A DNA stretch of 20,020 bases, taken from the IMG/VR virus record IMGVR_UViG_3300011010_000976, positions 3,999-24,018 of that record; one strand, given 5' to 3'. The stretch comes from a virus. Shown piece after piece: positions 3,709-16,630 of this stretch (its first letter is position 1; each line of letters begins with the position of its first letter). Position numbers and translations under genes: made by a program. Under the pieces are notes generated by a model. That model was given only the letters and a program-made list of their open reading frames with translations, did no database searches and was not told the DNA's origin.

Positions 3709-4746
3709 ATGACTGATAGAAAAATTATAATGGCAGGTCTTGCTAATAACAAAACTTCATTAGGTGAAGTTTTTCGTAGATACGTAGAATGTTTTAAAAC
3801 ATTTAGCAAACCTGATGTTTTTGATTTACATCAATTTACAAAAAACGAAGAATTTAAATTAGATTTATTTCCACCGTATAGTGGGCCGATAAATCATGAT
3901 ATTAAATATTTTCACTCTACTTTTAATCTTTATCGTAATATAAAAGAAAAAACCAAACCTTTTCCTAGAAGTTCAAATGTTAAAAAGATTGGTTATTTTG
4001 TTTGGGAGAGTTCTGAATTACATAATCAAGATGTTGAAGTTTTAAAAGACTTTGACGAAATATGGACTGCAAGTAAATATTGTAAAGATATTTTTTCACA
4101 ATATATAGATTCATCACTTATAAAAGTCATTCCACATCCAATACCAATTCCAGCTAAATTTCCTAAAAAATATAAAAATTTTACAATACTAATTATGGGA
4201 AATATTTCTAGTAATGTAGATCGTAAAAATATCGTTGGTAACTTAGAAGTTGCTAAAATTATAAAACAAAAATATAAAGATGTTAACGTAATTTTTAAAA
4301 CTTTTACTGGTTCAGATAACGAACGTGATCTTTTGAAACAAATTGTAGGAGATTCTAAAATAAAAGTTATTGATGAATATTACTCCTCGGAAAAAGTTCA
4401 AGATCTAATATGTAAATGTCACGTAATTTTATCTCTTCATCGTAGCGAAGGTTTCGGTTTAACTCTTGCAGAAGCAATGGCAGTTAATACAGTTCCTATA
4501 GCTACAGGATATTCAGGAAATGTAGATTTCATGAAAGATGTCAACTCTCTAGTCGATTATAAATTAGTAGATGTAGATATTCCTTATTTCAAAGGACAGT
4601 GGGCGGAACCAAATAAAGATAATGCTATAAATAAGATAGAAATTATTAAAAATAACACATATAATACTATATTTAATAATCTACAACATATAAAAGTCAG
4701 TAACTCATCATATACAATAACCGAAATAATTAAAAATACTTTATGA
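3709..4746 (+). CDS. GT-B glycosyltransferase (GT4/group 1-like)
   Basis: A 345-residue retaining-type GT-B glycosyltransferase. The diagnostic nucleotide-sugar-binding stretch is HRSEGFGLTLAEAMA at about residues 244-258, with E247 and E255 forming the E-x7-E pair. Before it lie the usual GYFVWES (95-101) and DEIWTASKYCKDIF (116-129) segments, and after it the PIATGYSGNVDFM segment. There is no signal peptide or membrane helix, so it should act in the cytoplasm on a protein or nucleotide-linked acceptor. It starts 3 bases after the probable adhesin gene and overlaps the methyltransferase gene by ATGA. Linkage to structural genes rather than DNA-modification genes suggests virion-protein glycosylation, but transfer to host surface glycan or phage DNA cannot be excluded. 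Confidence 0.9.
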   Translation: MTDRKIIMAGLANNKTSLGEVFRRYVECFKTFSKPDVFDLHQFTKNEEFKLDLFPPYSGPINHDIKYFHSTFNLYRNIKEKTKPFPRSSNVKKIGYFVWESSELHNQDVEVLKDFDEIWTASKYCKDIFSQYIDSSLIKVIPHPIPIPAKFPKKYKNFTILIMGNISSNVDRKNIVGNLEVAKIIKQKYKDVNVIFKTFTGSDNERDLLKQIVGDSKIKVIDEYYSSEKVQDLICKCHVILSLHRSEGFGLTLAEAMAVNTVPIATGYSGNVDFMKDVNSLVDYKLVDVDIPYFKGQWAEPNKDNAINKIEIIKNNTYNTIFNNLQHIKVSNSSYTITEIIKNTL

Positions 4747-5234
4747 TAGATACAATAATATATAATAATAAAAAATATCCAGCATTCCAAACACAAGGTT
4801 TTGCATCACAGTTTATAATACCGTATGCCAAACATATATGTAAAGGATTTGGGGTGGATGTAGGATGTAATAGACTAGAATGGTGTTTACCAAATGCTAT
4901 ACCTATTGATCCTATTGTAAATAATTTTGACGCTTTAAACATTCCATATAATAACTTGGATTATATTTTTTCTTCACATTGTTTAGAACATTTAGATGAT
5001 TGGGTTAATGTATTAAATTATTGGGATACTTTACTCAAAGTTGGCGGAGTTATATTTTTATATCTTCCTGATTATTCTCAAGAATATTGGCGACCTTGGA
5101 ATAATAGAAAACATAAAAATATTTTCACACCAAATATATTAGAAGATTTTTTTATTGAAAAGAAATATTCTAATATATTTAAAAGTGGAGTTGATCTTAA
5201 TAACTCATTTTCTATTTTTGCAGAGAAGACTTGA
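4743..5234 (+). CDS. small class I SAM-dependent methyltransferase
   Basis: A 163-residue protein of the methyltransferase-11 type. GVDVGCNRLEW at about 37-47 is motif I (D39, G41), and the acidic/aromatic FSSHCLEHLDDW at about 76-87 is the usual post-motif. LKVGGVIFLYLPDY at 98-111 is the beta-5 region. It is short for the family (usually 200-250) and lacks an N-terminal extension, but the C-terminus looks complete. The ATGA overlap with the glycosyltransferase implies coupled translation and a shared task, perhaps capping the added sugar. Its last 23 bases overlap the end of the convergent gene on the other strand. Confidence 0.8.
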   Translation: MIDTIIYNNKKYPAFQTQGFASQFIIPYAKHICKGFGVDVGCNRLEWCLPNAIPIDPIVNNFDALNIPYNNLDYIFSSHCLEHLDDWVNVLNYWDTLLKVGGVIFLYLPDYSQEYWRPWNNRKHKNIFTPNILEDFFIEKKYSNIFKSGVDLNNSFSIFAEKT

Positions 5235-6765
5235 CAATATTTTCAAATTTAGTTATATGAGTTTCGTTAAAATCTATAGAATCTACAGCGACTACGTTAT
5301 CTCTATTAAATGCATCAAAGTATCCTTGATGTCTAGTATCCTCATTTATTAATCCATATAAAGAATTACTTTTATTAGGAACCACTATAAGTATATTACT
5401 ATTAATTGCTGCGGCATAATGATACATCGAACTATCACAACATACTATTCCATCACATATATCTATTAATTTCATCACACCTGTTACTGACAATTTATCT
5501 ACAACATTTACTACAGCATCAAAAATTGGTTCTTCTCTAATATGTTCATTGATGTTATTTCTTCCTATTTGTACAATAGTATAATTATTTTTAAAGTTGT
5601 CTATTATTTTTTTAGTTATATTATTAGGTATATTTCTACTTATATTTCCAGCACTGGGAGATATAACTAATATAGGCTTTTGAAAAGCTTTGATGCTATC
5701 TATAACTTTTTTATCTTCTTGTGTTTCTTGAAAATTAGGAGACATAGGTAAATTATCCCTGAAAATATCTTTTCTATCAAATAATACGTTTTCTAAATTT
5801 ATATTATTTTCTTGTAAGAATTCTAACTCTCTTTTATGTATAATATCCATTCTATCAGTATTAGAAGATAACTTAAATAAATTATTCATATTTTCTTTCT
5901 GACTAATATCGAATATAATTATTTTATCAGAATTTTCCATAGATGTAAATATTTCTTTTGCAAATTTGTTATGAGAAAATAAACTTATTATTATTTTGTC
6001 GTTAGATTCTTTTAAAAATTTAGAAATATTGTTATATAAATTATGTTTTGTTGATAATTTTATAATATCTCCTAATCCTGCACCAAATCTAAGAAGATGA
6101 TATTTGGTCGTTTCTTTTTTATTAATATTATGAATATATTCTAAATAATCTTTCCAAAATATATTTTTAGAATAATATTTCATAATATTTTCTGAGAAAA
6201 TATCAGTATTAACCCACCAATCTTCATGAACTCTCAGTTCTATAGTATCATCTATTCTCTTATGATGAAATCCTAATCCATCTACTATACACTTATACTT
6301 AGGAAATTCTGATAATCTATTGGTCATAGCTGTTTTTTTCTCATTTGACTGGTTCTGATGATACGTATCATGTTCAAAACACATCACCCCAAAAGATAAT
6401 TTATCGAATGGAAAATTATTCAATACTTTTACAGTTGCATCATCTACATCAAACGATAAAAAATCCACATAATTTCCAAATTTTTCAATATAGAAATCAC
6501 ATAAATCATTAAGTTGAATAGGATCGGATAAATCTACTATTCTGAATAGACATTTACGTTTAGACTTAATATAGAGTTGTTCTAAATTACTATCTATATC
6601 AGTTATAATACCGTTCCATCCTTTATTTTCTAAATAAAATGTATTATTACATTGTATAGGGTGATTACACCCCAAATCTAAAAATGTTTTTTTCCTTTGA
6701 TCATTTATTAAAAAATCCACAAATATATCTTGTCCTTCTTTAGAATTATTGTAACATTTATTCAT
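5212..6765 (-). CDS. FkbM-like methyltransferase fused to GT9-like glycosyltransferase
   Basis: This 517-residue protein has two parts. Residues ~10-195 resemble FkbM-type methyltransferases: KTFLDLGCNHP at 26-36 is SAM motif I, followed by GWNGIITDID and a FLSFDVDDA segment. Residues ~225-515 resemble family 9 (heptosyltransferase-like) enzymes: an RFGAGLGD loop, then LVISPSAGNISRNIPN, TIVQIGRNN, and CDGIVCCDSSMYHYAAAINS, which is the usual C-terminal donor-binding part. The fold calls are firm by motif; the substrates are unknown. It runs opposite to its neighbours, converging on the methyltransferase gene (23-base overlap) and diverging from the sulfotransferase. A sugar-transfer-plus-O-methylation role in the same decoration pathway is inferred. 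Confidence 0.8.
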   Translation of the reverse strand: MNKCYNNSKEGQDIFVDFLINDQRKKTFLDLGCNHPIQCNNTFYLENKGWNGIITDIDSNLEQLYIKSKRKCLFRIVDLSDPIQLNDLCDFYIEKFGNYVDFLSFDVDDATVKVLNNFPFDKLSFGVMCFEHDTYHQNQSNEKKTAMTNRLSEFPKYKCIVDGLGFHHKRIDDTIELRVHEDWWVNTDIFSENIMKYYSKNIFWKDYLEYIHNINKKETTKYHLLRFGAGLGDIIKLSTKHNLYNNISKFLKESNDKIIISLFSHNKFAKEIFTSMENSDKIIIFDISQKENMNNLFKLSSNTDRMDIIHKRELEFLQENNINLENVLFDRKDIFRDNLPMSPNFQETQEDKKVIDSIKAFQKPILVISPSAGNISRNIPNNITKKIIDNFKNNYTIVQIGRNNINEHIREEPIFDAVVNVVDKLSVTGVMKLIDICDGIVCCDSSMYHYAAAINSNILIVVPNKSNSLYGLINEDTRHQGYFDAFNRDNVVAVDSIDFNETHITKFENIVKSSLQK

Positions 6766-12126: not shown

Positions 12127-12939
12127 ATGAACAAACCATCAAAAATTAAAAGAAACGATTACGATAACATTTATTTTGCATCAGACTTTCACTATAATCA
12201 TCAAAGGGACTTTCTTTGGAAGCCTCGCGGATTTTCATCTTTTCAAGAACATGATAAGTTTATTGAAAATGAATGTTCCAAGCTTACAAAAAATGATTTA
12301 CTTATTTATCTTGGTGATTACAGCTTAAATACTACTGATGAAAATACTTCATCTCTGTTACATAAAACAAAGGCAAAGATGTTTTATATCTTTGGTAATC
12401 ATGAAGGCTATCACTCTCGATTTTATCGTGAATCGCTACATGCATTTTACAAGACTTTTCATAATCTTTCAGCAATAGATGATGGATTAGCAAAAGATCA
12501 CTCATCTATGCATGGCTCAAACTTTGTTTCGGAAATTCCATTTCAGATTTTTCCTTTTTCTGTAGATAAAACTACAAAGGAAGGTTTCCCTGGTATGTGT
12601 CGTAAGCTTGGAAAAGATGATGCAGGAAATGAAATCATATATTTTGGAGAAGAAGGTTATTTTCAAATCGGAAACGGTTTTTTCTTTTGCCGACATATGG
12701 CTCCGCTTATTTGGGATAAGATGAAGTATGAGAATTATTTTTCAATCTGTGGTCACTCTCATGGCAACTTAGAAATCGCAAAGCCATCTCATAAAAACGA
12801 TGGTAAGATTCTTGATGTTGGAGTTGATAATACTATTGAATATAATGGTTCAGCATTCTTTAAGGTTGAAGAAGTTAACGATATTATGAACCGTAAAAAA
12901 GTTAAAATCTACGATCATCATGGAGACGAACATATTTAA
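12127..12939 (+). CDS. calcineurin-like metallophosphoesterase
   Basis: A 270-residue metallophosphoesterase with the full ligand set: D20-F-H22, LGD at 62-64, GNHE at 90-93, H190 in CRHMAP, and GHSHG at 209-213, followed by LDVGVDN. The two-metal site is intact, so it should hydrolyse phosphoesters. An insert of about 60 residues lies between the GNHE block and H190 (residues ~115-175), larger than usual. Substrate unknown; protein phosphate, nucleotides or RNA ends are all possible. Its own leaderless-type promoter and position before a 2H phosphodiesterase and a PNK-like kinase suggest a nucleic-acid-end or signal-nucleotide role, which is inferred. Confidence 0.88.
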   Translation: MNKPSKIKRNDYDNIYFASDFHYNHQRDFLWKPRGFSSFQEHDKFIENECSKLTKNDLLIYLGDYSLNTTDENTSSLLHKTKAKMFYIFGNHEGYHSRFYRESLHAFYKTFHNLSAIDDGLAKDHSSMHGSNFVSEIPFQIFPFSVDKTTKEGFPGMCRKLGKDDAGNEIIYFGEEGYFQIGNGFFFCRHMAPLIWDKMKYENYFSICGHSHGNLEIAKPSHKNDGKILDVGVDNTIEYNGSAFFKVEEVNDIMNRKKVKIYDHHGDEHI

Positions 12940-12976: not shown

Positions 12977-13402
12977 ATGAACTACTGGCTCAAATCATAT
13001 GGCACTCTGCATGTTGGCAACGATGTTGTTCGCATAGCTGTGTCTAATGATTTTGGTAAATATTACCAATCTTTAATTGATAAAGATGTTCGACTTTTTA
13101 CAGGTTTACCTGCTCATGGAAGCCATATTACATTATGGCAACCAAGTATTCATGGTAAACTACCAATTGATAAGGCAAAGTTTTTAAAAGGATTTTATAA
13201 AAAGAATCCAATCGTTTTTGAATATGATATAGATATTATCGAAGGTGGTAAAACTAAAAACTTTCGCAATTGGTATATGAAAATTCGTTCAATGGCAGGG
13301 GAAAGTATCTGTAAATATCTCGGAAACGATCAGTATAAGCATTTACATTTGACCATCTCAAATACTAAAAATTCCGTTCGTCCTTACATTTGGATGAAAT
13401 AA
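12977..13402 (+). CDS. 2H phosphodiesterase, candidate Acb1-type anti-CBASS nuclease (T4 57B-like)
   Basis: A 141-residue protein with the two H-x-T motifs of the 2H phosphoesterase superfamily: GSHITLW (H50, T52) and HLHLTISNTK (H124, T126). Total length and motif spacing resemble T4 57B/Acb1, which cuts cyclic oligonucleotide messengers of the CBASS defence, and the N-terminus (WLKSYGTLHVGNDVVRIAVS) also looks like that family from memory. The alternative is a 2',3'-cyclic phosphodiesterase for RNA repair, supported by the PNK-like kinase directly downstream. The 2H fold is firm; the choice between the two roles is not. It is driven by its own promoter, consistent with early anti-defence use. 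Confidence 0.75.
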   Translation: MNYWLKSYGTLHVGNDVVRIAVSNDFGKYYQSLIDKDVRLFTGLPAHGSHITLWQPSIHGKLPIDKAKFLKGFYKKNPIVFEYDIDIIEGGKTKNFRNWYMKIRSMAGESICKYLGNDQYKHLHLTISNTKNSVRPYIWMK

Positions 13403-13407
13403 ATCTC

Positions 13408-13869
13408 ATGAAAAATAAACTATACATAATTATCGGACCTTCAGGTTCAGGTAAATCGACAAAAGCTAAAACTCTTGCACCAGACTGTTGCATTTGCGAA
13501 GCAGATAAGTTCTGGCTTAATTGCACAGGAGAATATCTCTTCCTGCCTTCTCTTTTAGGTAAAGCGCATTCTTGGTGTCAGAGTGAAGTAGAACGCCTTA
13601 TGAACGAAGGTAAGTCTCGTATTGTTGTATCTAATACTTCTCTCACTGACAAGGAACGTAAACCATATCTAGATCTTGCAGAAAAGCATAGTTATGAAGT
13701 AGTTTACGAATATTCCGATTCACCTTGGTTTCTTGACGTTCAGCCACGCTTAAAGGACAAGACTTATACTATTGAAGATGTAAATCTTTTTGTTAGTAAA
13801 AACACTCACGGTGTTCCTTTTGAAGGTATTAAGCGAATGTTTGAAAAGTATACCGAACCTACACAGTGA
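13408..13869 (+). CDS. polynucleotide-kinase-like P-loop kinase (AAA_33/N4BP2-like)
   Basis: A 153-residue protein. IIIGPSGSGKSTKA places Walker A at 10-18, ICEADKFW gives the Asp of the acceptor site near residue 34, and NTSLTDKERKPYLDLA is the usual strand-helix of PNK-type kinases. KNTHGVPFEGIKRMFEKY near the C-terminus is the N-x-HG-x-P signature of the N4BP2-like family. The ATG at 13408 follows the previous stop by 5 bases; an upstream in-frame TTG (13390) overlaps that gene and is not favoured. It probably phosphorylates 5'-OH ends of RNA or DNA. Co-transcribed with the 2H enzyme, it could form a healing pair like tRNA-ligase CPD/kinase domains. No ligase is in view. Confidence 0.8.
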   Translation: MKNKLYIIIGPSGSGKSTKAKTLAPDCCICEADKFWLNCTGEYLFLPSLLGKAHSWCQSEVERLMNEGKSRIVVSNTSLTDKERKPYLDLAEKHSYEVVYEYSDSPWFLDVQPRLKDKTYTIEDVNLFVSKNTHGVPFEGIKRMFEKYTEPTQ

Positions 13870-14395
13870 TGTAAACTTTATCGCTGTATTTATTACTAAA
13901 AATAAAACGATTAGAAGTGAACTCTTTACCAAGGAGTTCACTTTTTAGTTTTTTATAGTGATGACCTGCTCCTGGCATAAGATAACCAATAGTACAATGC
14001 GGTTTATAATCAGGATAGTTGTTAGTGTATTCAAAATTTTCACAAACTTCTTTATTAAGTTCATGTAAATCTTTGCTCTCAATTCCAAATTTTAAAACAT
14101 CAAATTTATCATTTTCGAAAAGAGAAATATTTTTAATTTTAAATGATACTGGACGTAAATCTATTTTATTTACTATTGATTTTGCTTGCTGAACATGTAA
14201 TCCATAAAGCACAGTGATATGAGGTTCAGTTTCAAGCCCATGTCCTGGCTCAAGATCATATATCTCACAAGGACAAATACTCTCTTGTATTTTTTTAATT
14301 TCGTTAGAGAGGTCACTTAAATCTAACATTAAGCATGAGTAAGAGCGATTAGCACTCCCCTCTGAAATAAAGTCGTATAATTGTTTGAATTTCAT
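13859..14395 (-). CDS. 2H phosphoesterase with capsid-targeting-like N-terminus
   Basis: A 178-residue protein. Residues 1-12, MKFKQLYDFISE, match the opening of the next two minus-strand genes and resemble the T4 internal-protein propeptide (MKTYQEFIAE), which the prohead protease cuts after I/L-x-E; here I-S-E|G. The body is a 2H phosphoesterase (2'-5' RNA-ligase-like): EPHITVLYGL (H59, T61) and KPHCTIGYL (H133, T135). The sequence differs clearly from the 2H protein at 12977. The last 11 bases overlap the opposing kinase gene, and the kinase terminator lies inside this reading frame. The ATG overlaps the upstream stop as TAATG. A packaged, ejected RNA or cyclic-nucleotide phosphodiesterase is inferred. 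Confidence 0.8.
   Translation of the reverse strand: MKFKQLYDFISEGSANRSYSCLMLDLSDLSNEIKKIQESICPCEIYDLEPGHGLETEPHITVLYGLHVQQAKSIVNKIDLRPVSFKIKNISLFENDKFDVLKFGIESKDLHELNKEVCENFEYTNNYPDYKPHCTIGYLMPGAGHHYKKLKSELLGKEFTSNRFIFSNKYSDKVYITV
13915..13955 (+). terminator. rho-independent terminator inside opposing gene
   Basis: AAGTGAACTC (13915-13924) pairs perfectly with GAGTTCACTT (13934-13943). Inner T-G/T-A pairs can extend the stem to leave a 3-base loop. T5 then A, G and T6 follow. It sits about 45 bases after the kinase stop, within codons of the minus-strand 2H gene. Confidence 0.8.
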
Positions 14396-15594
14396 TATCG
14401 AATTATACTTATCATCTCCACAACATCCTTTGGTGGTATTCTAATTTCACGTTCAGCAACAAGAAACTCGGATGCATTTTCTGTTTTAATCTTTGCCTTA
14501 ATAATTCCTATATCATTATAATTTATATCTTTTAATTTTTCGACCCATTCTGAACCATATGTATTTGCAAACACAGGATTTTTAGAAACAGGAGATTGGA
14601 TGAACCAAAGTGAAGTTAAATAAAATTCTATTAAATCTTCTTTATTATCAGGAGGAAATTTACTTTTTGACTTTCTTATAAGATAAGAATCCACAGCCTG
14701 TTTAAAGTTTTCTTCACTTTCTGTATATCTACGAACATATTCAATTACAGATTCACGACTCCATTTGTTATGAACAATCAACCACATCTCTTTTAGTGAC
14801 GATGCTATGGTTTTACAAATATCTAATGACAAAGAAAAACTTACGTCTCCTTTATATGAACTTCCACCTAAACCAAGTGAACCTCCTTTATATTCTTCTT
14901 GAAAGCCATTTTCGAATAATTCATTAGCTTTCAATGATGCATGATATGCAATTTCAATAGGTTCTAAATCTTCTGGACGAAAATCTCTACTATTTTGATA
15001 ATTTCCGTAATTCCAATTTTTAAATGTGTCAATCTTCACAACATAGTATCTTATTTCATTTAAAATTGTTTTTATATCTTGAATAAATTTTTCTAATTTT
15101 TTACCAAAATCTACCTCATTTTTTTCAAATCCATATTCTTCTGATCTTGAATTAAATTCTTGTAAAGAGTCTTCTACATACTTCAGATTATAATTATCTG
15201 CGTTTATATCCTGATTTTTAATAAATGATGTTATATTATATGGAATATATTCTGTTAAACTTTTATATCGAAAATTTCCGTCATCTGTTTTTTTTGCAAG
15301 ATTAAAGGTATGTTCTATTGATTCAATAGTTTTATCTATTGAATCATAATATCCTTCACCATCTAAATGACGTTTCTTTAGGTTTTTTATACGATCTATG
15401 AAATAATAATCTAAACCAATAGCATCTATATCATTGATAATATAATCTTCTTTATCAAGAACAGTTTTAATTAAATCTTCATAAAGCTTTTTTATATCTT
15501 TTATTTTCTTAACAACAGTAATAAATGCAGTATTATACGACTGCACAGGTGTTGTAGCCTCTAGAACTATATTATATAATTCTTCAAATTTCAT
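14395..15594 (-). CDS. putative internal head protein with ADP-ribosyltransferase-like domain
   Basis: A 399-residue protein that opens MKFEELYNIVLE|A, the shared N-terminal 12-mer. Residues ~20-200 are helical with no recognised domain. The C-terminal part fits an ADP-ribosyltransferase-like fold: IAYHASLKANELFENGF at ~215-231, GDVSFSLSLD at 249-258 (S-x-S as in the S-T-S strand), and ASEFLVAEREIRIPP at ~374-388, where E381-x-E383 resembles the catalytic E-x-E. The first motif has His rather than the Arg of classic R-S-E enzymes, so activity is uncertain. T4 packages the ADP-ribosyltransferase Alt with a comparable propeptide, a striking parallel. The next ATG follows by a 1-base overlap (TAATG). 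The ART call is tentative; the gene is certain. Confidence 0.7.
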   Translation of the reverse strand: MKFEELYNIVLEATTPVQSYNTAFITVVKKIKDIKKLYEDLIKTVLDKEDYIINDIDAIGLDYYFIDRIKNLKKRHLDGEGYYDSIDKTIESIEHTFNLAKKTDDGNFRYKSLTEYIPYNITSFIKNQDINADNYNLKYVEDSLQEFNSRSEEYGFEKNEVDFGKKLEKFIQDIKTILNEIRYYVVKIDTFKNWNYGNYQNSRDFRPEDLEPIEIAYHASLKANELFENGFQEEYKGGSLGLGGSSYKGDVSFSLSLDICKTIASSLKEMWLIVHNKWSRESVIEYVRRYTESEENFKQAVDSYLIRKSKSKFPPDNKEDLIEFYLTSLWFIQSPVSKNPVFANTYGSEWVEKLKDINYNDIGIIKAKIKTENASEFLVAEREIRIPPKDVVEMISIIR

Positions 15595-15595
15595 A

Positions 15596-16630
15596 TTAAA
15601 AATTGGGGGTCATTTCAGGAGCGATAGGTTTAGATGAAACTTTATAATCGTCTAATGCAGATACTATTAAGTTTGCATTTTCGCGCATTCTTTTATCTAC
15701 TCCATCCTTTTTTATATCACGATAATCTGGATGTTTTAAATAATTCTGTGCAGCAATACGAAGCGAATTTTTTGCAGAATCAAGATATTTAATAGCATCT
15801 GCTGTTCGTTTTTCTGTTATAGCTTGAGTATACTTGAAGAATGTAGTCATTGCAGAACGAATATTCTCACGCGCTTGGCTTTGTCCAGCCTTTTTTCTAC
15901 TTGGTAAATCTCCACGGAAAAATCCATCAACAATTGCTGTTTGTAATTTTGTTGGATATTTTGCTAAACTTGGAAAATTATATTTAGATGATGCAGATTT
16001 CCATTTGGAATTAAAATCACGGTTAAATAGTTGTTCAGCTTTTTCATCAGAAATAGTTATAACATTAACAAGCTTACCGTCTTTGTTTCTAGCTTTAGAA
16101 ATTTCGTCTTTTGTAAAAAGTTTTCCAATCTCATCTTTAAGAATAAGGTGTCCAATACCAATTGTTTTATAACCTTTACTATCTGCATAAGATTTATTTC
16201 TTATTCCTTGGTTACTAATCTCATGAAAACGAATATAGTCTTTTATATTATTTTTAATAATTTCTATTGATTTTTCTTTATCAGTAGCTATTAATTGTTT
16301 TTCAGGTTCATCAAGTTTTATATTTTTACCCTTTTTAATAATATCTGTGATTGCTTCTGGATTTTCAACAACACCATTTAATATTTCTGGATTTTTTATA
16401 ATCTCATCTTTTCTTTGCTCTATTTCTTTAGCTAAATTTTCTGCATTTTGAACTTGCTCAGGATTTTTTTTCTTTAGATTGTTGTATTCGGTTTCTAATT
16501 CTTTATATGAAGAATATGACACGCCGAGAAGTGCCATAGTTAATAATATATTAACTTTATTCATCCAGCCTTCTTCTAAGACGTTTTCGTTCTTTTCTAA
16601 TGATAGCTTATAGAATTCTTTAAATTTCAT
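15596..16630 (-). CDS. putative internal head protein with GH24 lysozyme-like domain
   Basis: A 344-residue protein that opens MKFKEFYKLSLE, the shared 12-mer; a second L-x-E|G site lies at residues 18-20 (LEE|G). Residues ~26-40 are a moderately hydrophobic helix (VNILLTMALLGVSYS), then a charged helical stretch to ~130. Residues ~130-310 fit the T4-lysozyme (GH24) pattern: RFHE (E137), YADSKGYKTIGIGHLI (D150, T156), equivalent to the E-D-T catalytic triad. The D-to-T gap is the usual 6, but E-to-D is 13 rather than about 9. It should cut peptidoglycan. It is first of the three-gene minus-strand unit. A packaged wall-piercing enzyme is one reading; an anchored endolysin is the other. Confidence 0.78.
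   Translation of the reverse strand: MKFKEFYKLSLEKNENVLEEGWMNKVNILLTMALLGVSYSSYKELETEYNNLKKKNPEQVQNAENLAKEIEQRKDEIIKNPEILNGVVENPEAITDIIKKGKNIKLDEPEKQLIATDKEKSIEIIKNNIKDYIRFHEISNQGIRNKSYADSKGYKTIGIGHLILKDEIGKLFTKDEISKARNKDGKLVNVITISDEKAEQLFNRDFNSKWKSASSKYNFPSLAKYPTKLQTAIVDGFFRGDLPSRKKAGQSQARENIRSAMTTFFKYTQAITEKRTADAIKYLDSAKNSLRIAAQNYLKHPDYRDIKKDGVDKRMRENANLIVSALDDYKVSSKPIAPEMTPNF

Follow-up and report, generated by a model that had tools for sequence, protein, structure and literature searches.

Three adjoining genes on the minus strand of a 20,020-nucleotide stretch of viral DNA (bases 3999-24018 within the 24,018-base virus record IMGVR_UViG_3300011010_000976, here called the window) encode proteins that begin with the same kind of 12-residue peptide and are unrelated past the Glu at position 12. 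We consider it probable, at roughly three chances in four, that this shared start is a capsid-targeting propeptide, through which the enzymes would be packaged in the phage head, cut free and ejected. The genes, numbered 1 to 3 as in Table 1, encode a 2H phosphoesterase, an orphan protein and a T4-lysozyme-like protein, and the source is an uncultured T4-like phage, since both a T4-type gp4 (head completion; phrog_218, E 1.7e-44) and PhoH are encoded in the window. An earlier note made from these letters alone had described the three open reading frames (ORFs), their starts, the Glu at position 12 and the unrelated bodies, all of which the sequence bears out. It had also read them as an operon of packaged effectors with a removable tag, a view which the comparative evidence supports: cargo is swapped behind the tag, the tag has lineage-specific versions, tagged genes lie in head-assembly modules, and a syntenic relative encodes a suitable protease.

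A short N-terminal peptide shared by unrelated proteins

The three starts have the pattern MKF-x-x-[LF]-Y-x4-E in common. Further starts of this kind, for which the earlier note recommended a search, proved frequent: the motif, written as a regular expression, matches 12 of the 103 ORFs of the window and its relatives G001-G003, far above the null obtained by shuffling residues 2-16 within each peptide (mean 0.21 and maximum 3 in 2,000 trials, with 12 never reached) and above the 0.38 matches predicted from internal Met positions, although these figures are indicative rather than exact, since the set contains orthologs and the expression was composed after the peptides were seen, and of the 12 matches at least G001 5321 is probably a false positive. 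More distant relatives also lie above every permutation (8 matches against 0.50 expected in G009, and 6 against 0.19 in G013), and with the same window-type expression G015 does not. The shared start is therefore real and beyond chance. In addition, the codons of the three copies in the window differ and the 30 bases upstream of them do not match, so that what the copies share is the peptide. Searching with a DNA pattern written for M-K-F-x-E-L-Y-x4-E gave 14 viral contigs.

The peptide behaves like the capsid-targeting sequence (CTS) of phage T4, which supports the interpretation given above. For packaging in T4, the first ten residues of IPIII are enough; within the CTS, residues 4 and 7 serve targeting and residues 8 and 10 processing, and gp21 cuts after L/I-x-E (PMC9026906). 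Like the CTS of IPI-IPIII (MKTYQEFIAE, cut by gp21), the tags of the window are N-terminal, about 10-12 residues long and carried by unrelated proteins of one phage. Both have aromatic or hydrophobic positions and a terminal h-h-x-E (h, hydrophobic), with Y-x-x-F-I-x-E comparable to L-Y-D-F-I-S-E, whereas the window tags are two residues longer, have an extra F3 and Y7, and are more permissive at P3. With a broader expression of T4-type spacing, which is too loose, the excess was weak or absent in T4, KVP40, syn9, phiM12, OC and PTm1; that expression does recover two T4 ORFs that start MKTYQEFIAE.

As the hydrophobic residues and the Glu stand in positions that match those of T4, we infer that a tagged protein is targeted to the core, loses its tag by a cut behind the terminal Glu and is ejected along with the DNA. 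A short helix would bind the prohead core by its hydrophobic face during head assembly, and the tagged protein would thus be carried inside; a gp21-type prohead protease would then cut after the terminal hydrophobic-hydrophobic-x-Glu, and in gene 3 perhaps also after the LEE at residues 18-20; and the freed enzyme would leave the head with the DNA upon infection.

Lineage-specific versions and head-assembly genes

Homologs of gene 1 occur at 37 viral loci and in records of huge phages of up to 642 kb. In an alignment of 13 homologs with 31-89% identity to gene 1, E12 never varies, nor do the catalytic His and Thr, and the residues preceding it vary by lineage (MKFKQLYDFIS, MKRIKLFEEFLN, LKKYKEFIK, IKLKSLIL, IITSYSLFIN and others). 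When the other N-termini of a lineage were scored against the tag of its own 2H protein, the window set had 5 matches (of 105), the 234-kb contig G017 had 23 (of 288) and a group with MIKLKDIL-E had 6 (of 38), with few cross-hits; the G017 peptide, MKHIKLFEQF[LVI]NE, matched none of the 105 in the window set. Three further lineages scored in this way gave no own-lineage matches, and the pattern is therefore not universal in the data examined. On this comparison the address is specific to the lineage and not to the enzyme. Two other observations concern such addresses. On a 202-kb contig that has no 2H homolog (L096-L098, G015), three adjoining genes (94079-95238) start MKYVKTFEDF or MKHVKTFENFLNE and look like the address cluster of another lineage, and a protein starting MIKLKEIMNE (L026:12238-12918) has a weak match to a PARP catalytic domain (3e-5, below the cut-off), making it another candidate packaged ADP-ribosylating enzyme.

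In the G017 tags, third codon positions are the most variable and the 30 bases upstream are mutually unlike, which argues that selection acts on the peptide. These same features, together with the retention of the pattern between homologs only 31% identical, make it very improbable that the similarity lies in the DNA, i.e., that the starts were copied by recombination or are held by a translation or regulatory element, even though the genes are adjacent and gene 2 looks recently inserted.

In three lineages a tagged gene lies within the head-assembly module. For example, a tagged 82-aa gene (MKFEELYTSTFE) on contig L203 has a gp67-type prohead gene on one side and the head maturation protease on the other, with the scaffold and the major capsid protein (MCP) beyond the protease, and its orthologs are found at the corresponding position in Pelagibacter phage HTVC008M and Methylophilales phage Melnitz, with N-termini that differ yet end in Glu (MITLSNLRKLTTE and (V)SKTLSQFKQELPE). 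A gene starting MKIIKTFEEF on G017 adjoins the protease, two genes from the MCP (phrog_138), and on L019 the gene after the protease starts MIKLRHLVEN, and the 2H cassette lies downstream of the MCP. A second tagged protein of G017 has a domain that also occurs in the prohead protease of Halogranum virus HGTV-1 and in a protein of Roseobacter phage CRP-406 annotated as MCP, such that covalent fusion to a head protein in one phage seems to correspond to tag-borne entry in another.

The ends of the tags (FISE, IVLE, LVVE, LLCE) resemble the aligned cleavage sites of the MCPs (T4, FLTE|A; G013, LLQE|A; L019, LLDE|A) in having hydrophobic-hydrophobic-x-Glu. The earlier note rightly confined a strict I-S-E to gene 1: the FISE of gene 1 satisfies the gp21 rule L/I-x-E, and the IVLE of gene 2 and the LSLE of gene 3 do not strictly do so. 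The gp21-like protease that it expected in the genome is absent from the 24-kb fragment but is encoded by G013, the closest of the syntenic relatives to include a head module (Peptidase_S77, E 8.6e-17). An MCP search from G013 returned two copies of the same phage and nothing further.

Several points weigh against a cleaved head propeptide. No protease or head gene was found in the 24-kb record or in G007-G009, which are incomplete contigs without a head module; at P3, two of the three window peptides carry V or S where the rule has I/L; the 2H homologs of L019 and L030 keep only five residues from the first ATG (MLLVE and MLLNE), and that of Maribacter phage Molly has no N-terminal extension; and T4 gp68 lacks a CTS-like start. 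Furthermore, tag-like starts occur in tail modules, near the tape measure gene in L211 and near a baseplate hub gene in G013 (27245), so that either chance accounts for some of the matches or heads are not the only place of the peptide. These tail-module starts, and a gene 3 lysozyme body that is closest to the tail lysozyme gp5, would suit a general virion-docking helix for head, neck or tail, which we consider unlikely, as no position is more conserved than the terminal Glu, the tag ends match capsid cleavage sites and carriers stand beside the prohead protease in three lineages. Less likely still is an amphipathic helix that binds a membrane or host complex inside the infected cell without any packaging: the short hydrophobic and charged pattern and the hydrophobic segment right behind the tag of gene 3 are in keeping with such a helix, which leaves the invariant Glu, the lineage-specific consensus and the link to head modules unexplained.

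The proteins behind the peptide

The earlier note had assigned enzyme bodies to all three genes. For gene 1 this is confirmed: the Pfam match is joined by an AlphaFold2 (AF2) model with a mean predicted local distance difference test score (pLDDT) of 89, whose fold matches Usb1, Acb1 and CPDase, and by the invariant motifs H59-I-T61 and H133-C-T135 in the aligned homologs, i.e., two HxT/S motifs in a 2H fold, as is required for membership of the 2H superfamily. In the model, residues 1-8 have a pLDDT below 50, the tag lies outside the fold and the domain begins at residue 20. The sole match among PDB sequences is Acb1 (E 0.0016), and the Pfam Acb1 score of 26.4 bits is just below the cut-off of 27; Usb1 and other 2H families are as close to gene 1 in fold as Acb1 is, and the fold comparison therefore does not decide between an Acb1-like and an RNA-healing role. 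Acb1 degrades cyclic nucleotide alarm signals (PMC9117128), and by analogy gene 1 may do likewise, or it may heal RNA ends like other 2H enzymes. It shares the 2H fold and the HxT/HxT motifs with this anti-CBASS (cyclic oligonucleotide-based antiphage signaling system) phosphodiesterase of phages FBB1, BCSR5 and T4 and, unlike Acb1, bears an N-terminal tag.

Gene 3 is likewise confirmed as T4-lysozyme-like, with matches to phrog_430 (9.4e-8) and to T4 lysozyme chains in the PDB (down to 4.4e-8), and a Pfam Phage_lysozyme score of 22.2 bits against a cut-off of 22.3. The catalytic Glu, Asp and Thr core of the family is present, as E137, D150 and T156 are invariant with T4 lysozyme in an alignment with four relatives (alignment A2), in which the pairing of the Glu needs a four-residue insertion. 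We do not favour the idea of a dead enzyme, since Gln141 stands opposite E11 only in the ungapped PDB alignment, and the family alignment has the invariant Glu137 with the insertion. Compared with T4 lysozyme and the gp5 tail lysozyme, which share this core, gene 3 has four more residues in the active-site region, and the tag, a hydrophobic segment and a charged linker precede the core. The address pattern is retained in relatives at 84, 50 and 35% identity, and the second site, correctly placed by the earlier note near residues 18-21 as L-E-E|G, is kept as V/L-x-E-E-G ahead of the hydrophobic segment. Cleavage at this site would leave the lysozyme domain with a signal- or anchor-like N-terminus in front of it, which, speculatively, could help the ejected lysozyme to reach the envelope.

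The ADP-ribosyltransferase (ART)-like body proposed for gene 2 found no such confirmation: it is suggested only by motifs read by eye (AYHAS at 216-220, GDVSFS at 249-254 and VAEREI at 379-384); the protein has no relative among the viral contigs, phage records or fetched ORFs, no Pfam family, and no PDB or usable structural match, and its single-sequence AF2 model (pLDDT 41) is unusable. Gene 2 is missing in G001 and G002, where its two neighbours adjoin and gene 3 is followed directly by gene 1, and it appears to be an insertion in the window phage that arrived with its own tag.

Other relatives also differ in what follows the tag. For example, a tagged 679-aa PcfJ-like protein of G003, starting MKFSELIKLMTE, occupies the place of gene 3 ahead of the 2H gene, and further tagged genes of relatives include MEFSELYKILVKE (phrog_1349) and MTENFDNFFDNLLE (weak DUF3990 match). 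We propose that the operon works as a cassette, with a constant address behind which effector genes (for the 2H phosphoesterase, the lysozyme and the putative orphan enzyme) are swapped. Tagged genes also form runs elsewhere. On a T4-like contig (L207:3870-11695), one stretch of 8 kb holds at least seven genes that start MKFTELYE or near variants, an array of tagged small proteins. On the minus strand of L070 (G009), a tagged start, MKFDDLYQLVSE, is followed by an ART-like stretch, FFHGSMIELPVGTILRP, which breaks off after 52 aa (1635-2104) and seems to continue in the next ORF, as in a broken or frameshifted copy. On the same strand at 3926-5897, about eight small adjacent ORFs (66-84 aa) end in a motif like N-L-[IL]-[ST]-x-D-Y-[FI]; either they carry a common C-terminal tag, or they form an array of duplicates.

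Known packaged proteins and other features of the window

The CTS concept, and the idea that T4-like phages load various proteins by means of it, are already published, and T4 Alt is a head-packaged ART with a cleaved propeptide of seven residues (PMC9026906). The packaged-enzyme concept and an N-terminal propeptide are what Alt and the tagged genes would have in common; no sequence relation between them was shown. Head-packaged ARTs have been inferred from gene context, without a tag, in many phages (PMC9503650), and the polyvalent or head-fused effectors of Iyer and colleagues in that paper, which include ART and PARP types, are likewise inferred to travel in the head. Those effectors are packaged by fusion or gene neighbourhood, whereas here a short detachable peptide is predicted; capsid targeting and propeptides are nowhere mentioned in that paper. 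Relative to T4, the cargo described here includes enzymes, and jumbo phages carry different, lineage-specific sequences. A literature search, with subscription papers mostly outside its reach, found no description of address peptides that are specific to a lineage and occur on large sets of proteins in jumbo or uncultured T4-like phages, and a search by the T4 peptide string found no paper. What is new here is thus the occurrence of lineage-specific tags on large protein sets in such phages, and an operon of tagged enzymes that includes a 2H phosphodiesterase.

Proteins delivered with phage DNA are known for only a few model phages. We tentatively suggest, at somewhat less than even odds, that each of many lineages of large tailed phages has a capsid address of its own, a short N-terminal peptide with a prohead-protease site at its end that would be carried by up to dozens of proteins, and that the injected set could be read from gene starts. 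The most recurrent cargo found here would be the 2H phosphodiesterase, possibly a pre-loaded destroyer of nucleotide defence signals, or an RNA repairer, from the first moment of infection. If so, an address readable from sequence would give a cargo list for any T4-like or jumbo phage, uncultured ones included, would point to counter-defence and take-over enzymes not yet known, and would offer alternative packaging tags for protein delivery by phages of non-model bacteria.

Table 1. Positions in the window of the three tagged genes and of features within them.
Feature	Position	Strand	Evidence
Gene 1, tagged 2H phosphoesterase, 178 aa	13859..14395	-	Pfam 2_5_RNA_ligase2 9.4e-11; AF2 model, 2H-fold matches
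Gene 1 address peptide MKFKQLYDFISE, predicted cut after E12	14360..14395	-	Sequence; E12 invariant in 13 aligned homologs
Gene 1 first HxT motif, H59-I-T61-V	14210..14221	-	Alignment and sequence
Gene 1 second HxT motif, H133-C-T135-I	13988..13999	-	Alignment and sequence
Gene 2, tagged orphan, 399 aa, C-terminus possibly ART-like	14395..15594	-	Synteny; motifs by eye
Gene 2 address peptide MKFEELYNIVLE, predicted cut after E12	15559..15594	-	Sequence
Gene 3, tagged T4-lysozyme-like, hydrophobic segment and charged linker, 344 aa	15596..16630	-	phrog_430; T4 lysozyme chains
Gene 3 address peptide MKFKEFYKLSLE	16595..16630	-	Sequence; pattern kept in relatives
Gene 3 second candidate cleavage site L-E-E|G, residues 18-21	16568..16579	-	Conserved as V-x-E-E-G
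Gene 3 hydrophobic segment VNILLTMALLGVSYSS, residues 26-41, directly behind second site	16508..16555	-	Sequence
Gene 3 catalytic region, E137/D150/T156 vs T4 lysozyme E11/D20/T26	16163..16231	-	Alignment A2, four-residue insertion

With 4 copies in the window where 5.7 are expected, the late-promoter pattern TATAAATA is uninformative. At the left edge of the window four codons read X in both frames (record bases ~3988-3999), where the record seems to hold a run of N. A second protein with HxT...HxT-like motifs (phrog_12204), which is untagged, is encoded at 12977-13402 (+); beside it, and also on the strand opposite to the tagged operon, lie genes for a polynucleotide-kinase-like ATPase (13390-13869) and a metallophosphatase (12127-12939), and together the three look like a cytoplasmic RNA-repair set.

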